Shown here: one piece after another, positions 1 through 56,315 of the stretch
Layout of the letters: each line of letters starts with the position of its first letter
How positions within the stretch are numbered: the first letter of the stretch is position 1
From: Candidatus Thermodiscus eudorianus
GTDB taxonomy: Archaea; Thermoproteota; Thermoprotei_A; Sulfolobales; Acidilobaceae
NCBI GenBank assembly: GCA_015521085.1
Contig: WAOW01000004.1
Span: 124,001 to 188,000, forward strand
Length of the DNA stretch: 64,000 nt
Direction of reading: 5' to 3'
Notes under the pieces: generated by a model
Database searches by the model: none
What the model was told of the DNA's origin: nothing
The model's input: only the letters and a program-made list of their open reading frames with translations
Made by a program: the position numbers and the translations under genes

Positions 1-2
1 AC

Positions 3-1262
3 GGCCGGAGGAGGATTGGGAAGACCAGGCTCATACTAGAGTGGGCCCGCGGGAAGAGGCACGCATACTACCAGGCAGGGCTCTGGGGCCACAGGGCGAA
101 TATAGAGGGCCTCTCACAGGCTATAGAAGAGCAGCTGGGTGTACCTGGAGCCTCCGGCGTAGGCGATCTAAAGAGCCTTCTAAGCCTCACGGCGGGGTTT
201 GTACGGGAGAGGGCGGCTGTAGTAATAGATGAGTTCACCTACTGGGCCCGGACGGATCCAGGCGTGGTCAGCGATATACAGTGGTTCGTAGACCACGTAC
301 TACCCGGTAGCAAGCTACTACTAGTGCTTACTGGCAGCCTCTTGGGCGTTATTGAGAGGAGTGTGCTAGGCGGGGGTGCACCCCTCTACGGTAGAGCCGG
401 CTTGAGGCTGAGGATAGAGGAGCTGAGCCCCTGGTGCATCCCATCCTTTGCCCCGGGCTACACGCCGAGCCAGCTAGTGGAGACATACTCGCTCTTCGGA
501 GGGACCCCCTACTATCTACGCCTCCTAGATCCCTCCAAGACCCCGCTCGACGCCTGGCACGAGCTACTGGGGCCCCAGGGCCTGCTGGGTGACGAGCCCA
601 TCTTCGCCCTCAGGGACGAGTTCCGCGACCCCCACCCCTACCTGGCACTTCTACAGGCGATGGCCGCGGCTCCGTGGACTCTCGTGGGGAAGGCTGCCGC
701 TAGGGCGGGACTCCCGTCTAGCCACGCCAGCATATACGCCAGGAGGCTCGTCGCCCTGGGCGTGTTAAGGGAAGTCCCACTGCTCTCCCCGGGTAGGAGG
801 AGGCTGTATTCTATAGTTGACAAGCCGTTGAGGGCACTCCTTAGCTATCCGGCTCACGCCCTTGAGGGGGACTCGCCTAGGGTGAGGCAGTGGTATGCCA
901 GGATTGTAGCCCAGGGCTGGGAGGAGCTAGCCATGTACCATGCAACGTATCACTTGGCTCGGGTGCTTGGGGTTAACGCTTCGAGGGCTGGGAAGGTTCT
1001 CCATAGGGGTGGGGAGGTTGACTGGGTCGTTATCGACGAGGAGAATGAGAGGATCCTGGCTGTGGAGGCTAAATGGACCAGTATGTCCAGGGTGGATGCG
1101 GAGAGGCTGGCGGGGAGGTTGAGGAACCTTGTGCCCTCGCTCCTACCAGCCAGGTATGGTCACTATCCTGTGACCCCGGTACTGTACCTCAGGGGAGCTG
1201 GCGGGGGCGGGGGTTATCACCTCGTGACCCCGGGGGATTTACCGTGGGGTGAGTGCAGGTAG
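3..1262 (+). CDS. Archaeal AAA ATPase (ATPase_2/DUF234 type), 5' end outside window
   Basis: The reading frame is open from base 3, so the start lies before the window; 419 codons are visible. It opens with a P-loop (GRRRIGKT), followed near residue 74 by a Walker B stretch (AVVIDEF). The C-terminal part has a winged-helix-like region and then an acidic nuclease-like patch (VDWVVIDEENERILAVEAKW), the arrangement of archaeal ATPase_2 proteins with a DUF234 tail. These proteins are often linked to mobile DNA or defence, but their substrates are mostly unknown. A second member of the broad family lies at 55.2 kb. The family call is firm; the role is not known. Confidence 0.8.
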   Translation, partial: GRRRIGKTRLILEWARGKRHAYYQAGLWGHRANIEGLSQAIEEQLGVPGASGVGDLKSLLSLTAGFVRERAAVVIDEFTYWARTDPGVVSDIQWFVDHVLPGSKLLLVLTGSLLGVIERSVLGGGAPLYGRAGLRLRIEELSPWCIPSFAPGYTPSQLVETYSLFGGTPYYLRLLDPSKTPLDAWHELLGPQGLLGDEPIFALRDEFRDPHPYLALLQAMAAAPWTLVGKAAARAGLPSSHASIYARRLVALGVLREVPLLSPGRRRLYSIVDKPLRALLSYPAHALEGDSPRVRQWYARIVAQGWEELAMYHATYHLARVLGVNASRAGKVLHRGGEVDWVVIDEENERILAVEAKWTSMSRVDAERLAGRLRNLVPSLLPARYGHYPVTPVLYLRGAGGGGGYHLVTPGDLPWGECR

Positions 1263-54943: not shown

Positions 54944-55171
54944 GGGAGAGCCCAGGTCCCTGCATCCCCGGTAATAGTATCGTCCTAGGATGAATGGGGA
55001 TAGGTCGAGCGCCAGCCAGTACAGAGCCCTCCACGCATAGACGATCCTAGCCGTCCCTCCATCCCCCAGGGGGCTTCTTTCGTATGACTCGATTATTTTT
55101 AGGACTCGTTGGTTACGGGAGTATTGTTGTCTTCGACGGGGAACCTCATGGTTTCTCTAGCGGTAGGCTTA

Positions 55172-55211
55172 TTACTTACGGGGGGTGTAAGTTACTTACG
55201 GGGGGCATAAG
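55172..55211. repeat. Two tandem 20-bp repeats abutting the ATPase start codon
   Basis: Units at 55172-55191 and 55192-55211 share TTACTTACGGGGGG and end in TGTAAG or CATAAG. The second ends directly at the TTG start of the ATPase gene. Each unit can form a small hairpin (CTTAC/GTAAG around a G-rich loop), and the junction makes an odd palindrome GTAAGTTACTTAC (55187-55199). This is a likely operator or translational control site. Confidence 0.75.
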
Positions 55212-56315
55212 TTGCTGTTTGATATTGCGCCCAAGGAAAGGCGAGAGGATCTCTACGATAGAGAGAATGAACTGAGAAGCCTAATGGAAGCCCTCAGACT
55301 TGGAGAGAGGCTTGTCATTGTCAGAGGCGTCCGGAGAATCGGCAAGTCAAGCCTAGTCAGAGTAGGTGTAAGGGAAGCTGGGATCCCCTATGCGCTGGTA
55401 GACGTTAGAGAGTTGTACTTTGAGGAGGGCTCTGTCAGGCTAGCCAGCCTCGTAGCCCGGATAGTGGATGCAATGAGGAGACGGTCCAAGTGGTACGAGA
55501 GGTTAGAGTTTAGACTAGGCGATGCCCTCGGCAAAGTCAAGGGGATCCACGCGGCTGGATTCAGCTTAGAGCTGAGACCTCCAGCCAAGCCCAGGCTGAC
55601 AGAAGTACTAAAGGCCCTAGACGAATGGTGCGGCGAGCATGGCTGGAGATTCGCCCTAGTATTTGACGAGGCCCAGTACCTCCGGTTCTCCAACACCAGG
55701 TACGACGGAGTAATAGCTTGGGCTATCGATAATCTCCCCAACCTCACCTTCATAGTCACTGGGAGCGAGGTCGGGGTGCTAAGGGAGTTCCTCCGCTTAG
55801 AAGACCCCAGAGCACCACTCTACGGGAGACATCGGAGGGAGATACCATTAGAAAGGTTCACAACCCAGCAATCGCTCGGCTTCCTAGAGACGGGCTTCAG
55901 GGAGCTCGGCGTCAGGGTTAAGAGATCGGAGCTGGAGGAGGCCGTGGAGAAGCTTGACGGCATAGTGGGGTGGCTGACCCTGTACGGCTACAAACGGGGG
56001 GTGGAGGGTTCTCCGCATAGGGAGGCTCTCCGGAGGGTCTTTGAGGAGGGGAGTCTAATGGTCCTAGCAGAACTCTCAAAGGTCATAGAGGGCTCTCCAG
56101 CCAGATACGTGGCGATCCTCAAGGCTGTAGCCCAAGGCATCACCAGGTGGCGAGAGATAAAGACCTATGTAGAGACTAGAACAAACACCTGGATCCCCGA
56201 CAACCGGTTCTCACAGCTCCTCAGGAACCTGGTGAGGTACAGCTATCTAGAGAAGCAAGATAACGAATACGTAATACCAGACCCTATGGTTAGACATGCA
56301 GCGAAAAGCCTCTAA
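55212..56315 (+). CDS. Archaeal AAA ATPase (ATPase_2 family)
   Basis: A 367-residue STAND-like ATPase. It starts with DLYDREN (the family's entry motif), Walker A is RGVRRIGKSSLV (about residues 39-50), and Walker B is ALVFDEAQYL (about 148-157). Sensor-1-like FIVTGSEVGVL and PLYGRHRREIPLERF follow. The C-terminal part is a winged helix (KAVAQGITRWREIKTYVE). The role is unknown; such genes are scattered in archaeal accessory DNA. The TTG start directly follows two tandem repeats. Confidence 0.82.
   Translation: MLFDIAPKERREDLYDRENELRSLMEALRLGERLVIVRGVRRIGKSSLVRVGVREAGIPYALVDVRELYFEEGSVRLASLVARIVDAMRRRSKWYERLEFRLGDALGKVKGIHAAGFSLELRPPAKPRLTEVLKALDEWCGEHGWRFALVFDEAQYLRFSNTRYDGVIAWAIDNLPNLTFIVTGSEVGVLREFLRLEDPRAPLYGRHRREIPLERFTTQQSLGFLETGFRELGVRVKRSELEEAVEKLDGIVGWLTLYGYKRGVEGSPHREALRRVFEEGSLMVLAELSKVIEGSPARYVAILKAVAQGITRWREIKTYVETRTNTWIPDNRFSQLLRNLVRYSYLEKQDNEYVIPDPMVRHAAKSL

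Follow-up and report, generated by a model that had tools for sequence, protein, structure and literature searches.

Tandem palindromes at the start codon of an archaeal AAA+ ATPase gene probably form an operator that is read by the winged helix of the encoded protein

Introduction

SSO1545 (2FNA) and PABY2304 (2QEN) are archaeal AAA+ or Walker-type ATPases of unknown function, and they share both subfamily and fold with the protein analysed in this study. Such ATPases are present in many archaea, often in multiple copies; two structures have been solved, and no function has been assigned. In the literature covered, with most subscription papers outside its scope, we found no report on DNA targets or on an upstream operator of SSO1545 or PABY2304. 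Orc1/Cdc6 and ORC2 proteins (2V1U, 2QBY, 1W5T) also consist of an AAA+ core that is followed by a winged helix, and Orc1/Cdc6 proteins contact the DNA through the winged helix, as stated in the titles of 2QBY and 2V1U and, with the details, in PMC4599002. They read origin sequences, whereas the site described here is a putative promoter element whose sequence varies among the genes. The same NBD-helical-winged-helix arrangement is found in the STAND/NOD modules of CED-4, Apaf-1 and the plant NLRs. Indeed, PMC4599002 groups SSO1545 structurally with Cdc6/Orc1, Apaf-1 and CED-4 in a single family, and it reports DNA bending by the NLR Rx1. In contrast to the STAND/NOD modules, the winged helix of our protein appears to be a sequence-specific DNA reader, the code of which we have partly deduced, and there is no effector domain. 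Finally, the mycobacterial IniR is a promoter-binding protein with an SSO1545-like AAA+ module; according to PMC5760070, its DNA binding is due to a C-terminal domain apart from this module and the genes that it activates are not its own, in contrast to what we propose for the ATPase studied here.

Autoregulation by palindromic operators is already known as a kind. Phage repressors and the archaeal regulators of the TrmB and Lrs14 types repress their own genes by binding palindromes between the TATA box and the start, and the recognition helix sets the specificity. As compared to these proteins, the regulator proposed here would be a full AAA+ ATPase with hardly any regulon and with a very large diversification of the operator from paralogue to paralogue. 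To our knowledge, it is new for an AAA+/NOD-type ATPase family to have hundreds of operators at the members' own genes that co-evolve and differ in their spelling: No description of the operators or of the code at residue 330 was found in the literature, although this does not show their absence since most subscription papers were outside the scope. In the following, we describe the element that very probably constitutes, within the ATPase gene's promoter, a DNA operator with two sites and that would be read by the C-terminal winged helix of the ATPase itself for autoregulation.

Results

The window, i. e. the whole stretch of 64,000 nucleotides analysed here, contains two direct repeats immediately upstream of the ATPase gene: unit 1 (TTACTTACGGGGGGTGTAAG, positions 55172-55191) and unit 2 (TTACTTACGGGGGGCATAAG, 55192-55211). 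These units, the promoter box, the gene and its parts described below are all located on the forward strand. The two units are 90% identical over 20 nt, TTACTTACGGGGGG is common to both, and the last base of unit 2 (55211) directly precedes the TTG codon at 55212. Each unit contains an inverted repeat: In unit 1, the half-sites CTTAC (55175-55179) and GTAAG (55187-55191) enclose GGGGGGT and match at five of five pairs, and in unit 2, CTTAC (55195-55199) and ATAAG (55207-55211) enclose GGGGGGC and match at four of five. The tandem repeat of 20 bp with internal inverted repeats that had been described as ending at the start codon was thus confirmed, both by the sequence and by Tandem Repeats Finder, which gave the array a score of 70, the highest among its 33 rows for the window. 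Exact copies of the shared 14-mer in the window are limited to the two adjoining ones, and if up to three mismatches are allowed, there are 6 matches as compared to 7.3 expected by chance. In the genome of 1.52 Mb, the first 12 nt (TTACTTACGGGG) are found exactly only at the two units, with one further match at one mismatch. The palindrome CTTACN7RTAAG is not in excess in its own genome either (43 and 42 matches versus 54 and 48 in the reversed control), and we therefore see no large regulon; the target would be the ATPase's own gene. Within 55149-55211, a frame of 20 codons that starts at ATG 55149 crosses both units, its TAA stop codon lying just before the TTG. A conserved upstream peptide was rejected as an explanation, since a short frame across the two units with its end close to the start exists in only 23 of 150 loci.

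The gene behind the element (55212-56315) encodes an AAA+ ATPase of 367 amino acids with an ATPase_2 domain (PF01637) and a C-terminal winged helix, as judged from profile match, homology and fold. The TTG start is supported by the fact that the N-terminal motif of the family, M-L-F-D-x-x-P-K, begins at this codon. Four properties place the protein in the SSO1545-PABY2304 subfamily of ATPase_2: the PF01637 match (57.1 bits, above the gathering score of 33.2), the homology over the full length to 2FNA (E 4e-65) and 2QEN (E 2e-46), the intact Walker A and B motifs (G39, G44, K45, S47 and D152 are invariant in 56 sequences, E153 is present in more than 90%), and the fold of the AlphaFold2 model (18 sequences, mean pLDDT 89.4, pTM 0.86), which is closest to 2FNA (Z 39.9) and 2QEN (Z 38.9). 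The winged-helix domain comprises residues 296-354 (56097-56273) with the helices 296-307, 313-324 and 330-342 and the wing 347-354, and residues 298-353 match the MCM_C winged helix. In the model, the third helix, i. e. the recognition helix, begins with residue 330, which is an aspartate in the window protein, encoded by GAC (56199-56201). The gene is the only member of its subfamily in its own genome. No match to a subfamily gene was obtained in four congeneric genomes (65-87% complete), and the nearest relatives, 79 and 78% identical, belong to another family of the order (a Pyrodictiaceae archaeon and a Desulfurococcales archaeon); the gene is thus patchy in its distribution and has perhaps been transferred. 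We rejected the idea of a virus or plasmid gene, as there was no match in phages or plasmids; viral_contigs contained at least one relative among the 600 pattern stretches listed.

The upstream regions of relatives of the gene were aligned at their start codons and scored for two units with arms of 5 nt, counting 10 pairings and 10 unit-to-unit matches (maximum 20). In the first round, a score of 16 was reached by 54 of 67 loci, but only by 5 of 335 dinucleotide shuffles and by none of 195 segments further upstream. After extension to the phylum, 114 of the 150 start-anchored loci had a score of at least 16 (8 of 750 shuffles, 6 of 441 control segments), and 90 loci had at least 18 (none of the shuffles, one control segment). 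The 203 loci, of which 5 were skipped (duplicate or off-target) and 48 had no start by the motif rule, gave 152 records, and without one record in a wrong frame and one short of clean upstream sequence, 150 remained, including the window and some near-identical loci. They carry 88 genome labels, in which the loci of named records are labelled singly so that a few genomes are counted two times. In 27 of the 150 loci, the codon taken as the first is other than ATG, TTG or GTG, and the start may be one codon off. Among the 114 high scorers, the period is 18-20 in 102 loci and the distance to the start codon 0-4 in 111. Arm complementarity is 91% within a locus, a value raised by the selection, versus 36% across loci. 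The score of 16 was also reached by 57 of 73 loci of a further set, mostly from the phylum of a Thermococcus MAG. Some of the 36 loci with lower scores have, by eye, one unit or another spacing. In a clade of the Thermococcus phylum (L258, L263, L269, L274 and L297, all with Asp330), there is one CCAGTAACTGG-like palindrome near the start with long C/G flanks, a layout that is missed by the two-unit score.

It is the architecture that is conserved, not the letters. The arms differ between relatives, with GTGTC/GACAC, GTATC/GATAC, CTTCT/AGAAG and CTGG/CCAG as examples, and automatic typing, which placed a few loci in the wrong register, yielded 48 different half-site 5-mers among 171 loci. The element is thus present in most relatives, and its absence in orthologues, named in the sequence-only reading as the outcome that would speak against it, did not occur; the proposal of one common unit had to be given up, and a search for TTACTTACGGGGGG would miss almost all relatives. 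Similarly, the expected repeats before other ATPase_2 genes were found as analogous tandem elements in the subfamily of the window gene, but they are not a trait of ATPase_2 as a whole: With the best of all possible starts, all 25 loci of other subfamilies scored 11-16 (L324 and L325 reached 16), whereas the scores of the five window-type genes included in this set were 18-20.

The location of the element suggests that it acts in transcription. By inspection, a TATA-like box, CTTATTA (55168-55174), was found that overlaps the left edge of unit 1 and probably belongs to the promoter. In the 114 high-scoring loci, a T/A-rich box is located at -7 to -1 before the first half-site (A+T 0.69-0.93), preceded by an A-rich, BRE-like peak at -11/-10. 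This is what is expected of a TATA box with a BRE. The TATA-like hexamers are centred at about -38 from the start codon, and the distance from an archaeal TATA box to the transcription start is usually 25-27 nt. Transcription would thus start near -12, and unit 1, positioned between the TATA box and the transcription start, would not be transcribed. The box directly before unit 1 also puts this unit where archaeal repressors bind. The palindromic sites overlap the regulator's own putative promoter, as in autorepressors. The cores of the two units differ: The core of unit 2 is G-rich in 100 of the 114 loci and C-rich in 2, as compared to 77 and 11 for unit 1 (Fisher p 0.0004). We infer that a DNA palindrome in unit 1 is free in its orientation whereas unit 2 has to provide a ribosome binding site as well, its G-run (within 55192-55211) being in the position of a Shine-Dalgarno sequence. 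A Sigma-70 and terminator scan, a method not suited to archaea, gave nothing useful.

The placement of the repeat had also been taken to suggest control of translation. According to this explanation, hairpins in the leader would hide or present the ribosome binding site, perhaps with the protein itself or temperature as the switch. The element does adjoin the start codon, the G-run of unit 2 is at Shine-Dalgarno distance, and G-T pairs outnumber A-C pairs among the arm mismatches in both units (34 to 14, p 0.006; 17 to 8 and 17 to 6 by unit), as RNA pairing would give. However, a G bias on the sense strand would also explain this excess, and with the expected start, the RNA would lack unit 1 as well as the left arm of unit 2. 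The two hairpins have a free energy of -7.3 kcal/mol at 37 °C (z -0.75), and 47 of 200 shuffles were as good; no stable RNA structure was found in shorter leaders (z 0.49 and -0.91). Moreover, the relatives of the organism are hyperthermophiles, 37 of the 114 loci lack a G-rich loop in unit 1, and a mechanism acting on the RNA leaves the link between the DNA letters and the winged helix (see below) unexplained. With a TATA-like box in front of unit 1 and an RNA that folds no better than its shuffles, translation control is not favoured: The G-T excess leaves it some room, and we regard it as improbable.

Another explanation starts from the fold of the protein. After the family's own two structures, the nearest folds are the archaeal ORC2 (1w5t, Z 22.5), plant NLRs and CED-4 (Z about 19-20) and DNA-bound Cdc6/Orc1 (2qby, Z 19.1). 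The protein combines AAA+ and winged-helix folds as Orc1/Cdc6 does, and its residues 5-367 show the NBD-HD-WHD arrangement of STAND/NOD proteins, a shared fold that shows no function. The ATPase might thus be an Orc1/Cdc6-like initiator and the repeats, similar to iterons, its loading site rather than a promoter operator; tandem G-rich sites beside a gene indeed recall origin boxes. Yet the sites are present as one unit in some loci and as two in most, always adjoining the start codon and preceded by a TATA-like box, and genomes with 7-12 paralogues bear different sites, unlike origins. In one Marsarchaeon genome with 12 matches, the 7 typed copies have 7 different half-sites. We consider an origin function very unlikely. 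More generally, the half-site is shared by 5 of 116 paralogue pairs within a genome, close to the value between genomes (637 of 14,419). For pairs with at least 45% identity, the half-site is the same in none of 11 pairs within genomes versus 309 of 1018 between genomes (p 0.04). As far as these small numbers go, close paralogues appear to diverge in their address, as judged from the sequences.

Each protein column was compared with each base of the half-site, numbered from the outer end. In the training set of 114 typed loci (from 145 full-length loci), column 330 stands out for base 1 with Z 10.6, as compared to 4.5 for the next column and to a maximum of 7.9 for any other half-site base; in 171 loci, the value is 16.6 and that of the next column 5.7. 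In the training set, aspartate was found with C in 55 loci and with G in 4, asparagine with G in 28 and with C in 1, lysine with G in 8, C in 2 and T in 1, arginine with G in 2, and serine with G in 5 and C in 3; others accounted for 5. The rule derived from these counts is Asp with C, and Asn, Lys or Arg with G at the outer base. The pairing of an acidic residue with cytosine and of an amide or basic residue with guanine fits ordinary hydrogen-bond chemistry. There are 8 exceptions among the 101 Asp, Asn, Lys or Arg loci of the training set, and 8 among 158 of the combined 171 loci, Glu and Gln included. Inspected by eye after the fact, all 8 look like cases in which the automatic call placed the half-site in the wrong register, and the correct register gives the predicted base.

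The rule was then applied to two sets outside the training. (i) The first comes from the same phylum, was left out of the training and had been seen by eye before the automatic test: 58 rows, reduced to 52 after removal of rows at least 85% identical to the training set and of winged-helix repeats, gave 17 typed loci and 16 predictions, 15 of which were correct. (ii) The second was fetched after the rule had been set up and contains rows less than 85% identical to the training set without winged-helix repeats: 86 rows gave 73 loci, of which 12 were untypeable and received no prediction; the 61 typed loci gave 54 predictions, and all 54 were correct (38 Asp with C, 16 Asn, Lys or Arg with G), a count that overstates independence since many of the loci are related Thermococcus orthologues of one clade (CTTAC accounts for 22 of the 61 types). 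By origin, 47 predictions belong to the phylum of the Thermococcus MAG, 6 to one Marsarchaeon and 1 to an Asgard archaeon. The second set contained in addition five loci with Glu and C and one with Gln and G. The five Glu330 loci (L261, L265, L267, L272 and L282), all from the Thermococcus phylum, extend the acidic half of the code. Columns 330 of 2FNA and 2QEN are Asp and Glu, respectively, and the code predicts C-type half-sites for SSO1545 and PABY2304; relatives with the same helices carry such half-sites (L027, L261).

Such a correlation might also arise by descent if a separate repressor read the operator: Many of the sequences are related and their pairs thus not independent, there is only a weak correlation between overall identity and the similarity of the operators (rho 0.19), and a neighbouring repressor with the same helix reading the site could give the correlation as well. 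Three lines of evidence argue against this possibility. First, a FastTree tree of residues 1-294, which leaves out the winged helix, requires at least 22 changes of base 1 and at least 14 of the residue class, and in 14 independent pairs that differ in the base (supported branches), the residue differs as predicted in 9-10, in the opposite way in none, and is unchanged in 4-5 (median p 0.002). Second, a single column out of 367 is far above the rest, namely the one at which the recognition helix starts. Finally, the operator changes between close homologues. A separate repressor is thus hardly probable. As in autorepressors, the specificity of the site appears to be linked to the recognition helix, judging from the covariation and the hold-out sets, and Asp330 of the window protein would be the reader of the outer C of the half-sites.

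Further signals are weaker. Among the 30 columns with the strongest covariation with bases 3-6, 14 are located in 296-355 as compared to 5.3 expected, and columns 331, 332 and 335 are leads for these bases. The top window of 12 residues for the inner bases is 156-167, after Walker B, and the second is 324-335; the stretch 156-167, equal in its covariation to the recognition helix, may touch DNA like the insertions of initiators, or it may reflect descent. For close pairs, which are not independent, the excess identity of pairs with like arms is largest in region 325-352 in both identity bins (45-55%: +0.045, p 7e-5; above 55%: +0.037, p 0.07), while the differences at residues 1-60 and 141-175 are smaller and mostly have the other sign. 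Partial correlations of identity windows across the whole region with operator similarity were weak, the highest being 0.13 (296-315) and 0.125 (151-170).

Discussion

The tandem elements in most relatives as well as the covariation with the recognition helix, including the hold-out sets, support the earlier suggestion of autoregulation and of a self-regulating gene family. In the mechanism that we propose, the four half-sites, arranged as two head-to-head pairs between the TATA box and the start codon, would be bound by the ATPase as a dimer or tetramer, with residue 330 as the determinant of the outermost base (C for Asp or Glu; G for Asn, Lys or Arg). Since unit 1 is positioned between the putative TATA box and the transcription start, binding would block the recruitment of the polymerase, and the gene would repress itself. 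As judged from the position, the regulation would probably be repression and, less probably, activation. The operator might be released by the nucleotide state (ATP or ADP) or by a ligand sensed by the AAA+ module, and the G-run of unit 2 probably doubles as the ribosome binding site. As the paralogues of one genome mostly have different operators, each copy would be regulated on its own. That the repeat is a product of chance or slippage without function in this genome, as might be thought given the absence of the unit elsewhere in the genome and the abundance of short tandem repeats (33 rows in the window), is contradicted by the same architecture in the same place in most relatives and deserves next to no credence.

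It is tempting to speculate that these proteins form an archaeal class of minimal NOD/STAND ATP switches, an idea that we put forward only tentatively and that has perhaps a modest chance of being correct. In these switches, the winged helix would be a DNA reader with a private code rather than an effector lock, and each copy would possess its own operator and the matching reader without cross-talk between paralogues, as is the case for the immunity regions of temperate phages. The ATP state would couple a signal to the release of the operator, and the winged helix of the NLRs might descend from a DNA-reading ancestor that is still at work in the archaea. If correct, the operator reading would also bear on the origin of the winged helix in NOD-type ATPases. 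If the proposal is true, the DNA target can be read beside each gene and the residue for specificity is known, so that each pair of gene and operator is a ready-made binding experiment. With the code at residue 330, a readable recognition table for hundreds of these pairs would have its first entry, and close paralogues with differing operators would provide a natural collection of orthogonal repressors from hyperthermophiles.

Self-regulation by operators may be wider than the subfamily of the window gene. Some ATPase_2 genes of another subfamily that encode proteins of 460-490 amino acids (L337 of the same genome, L338, L329, L331 and L302) have upstream palindromes of their own that are different, e. 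g. TTAGAGTATTATACTCTAA in two genomes, the tandem ACTTTAAAGTAC, and an inverted repeat of 17 bp in L302. Such a palindrome was seen in about 5 of the 12 distinct loci examined. A second ATPase_2 gene of another subfamily (L328, an open frame of 471 amino acids) crosses the left edge of the window (1-521 and upstream). The window protein itself has a weak match, mainly in the ATPase part, to the PADLOC candidate defence family PDC-S27 (E 2e-5).
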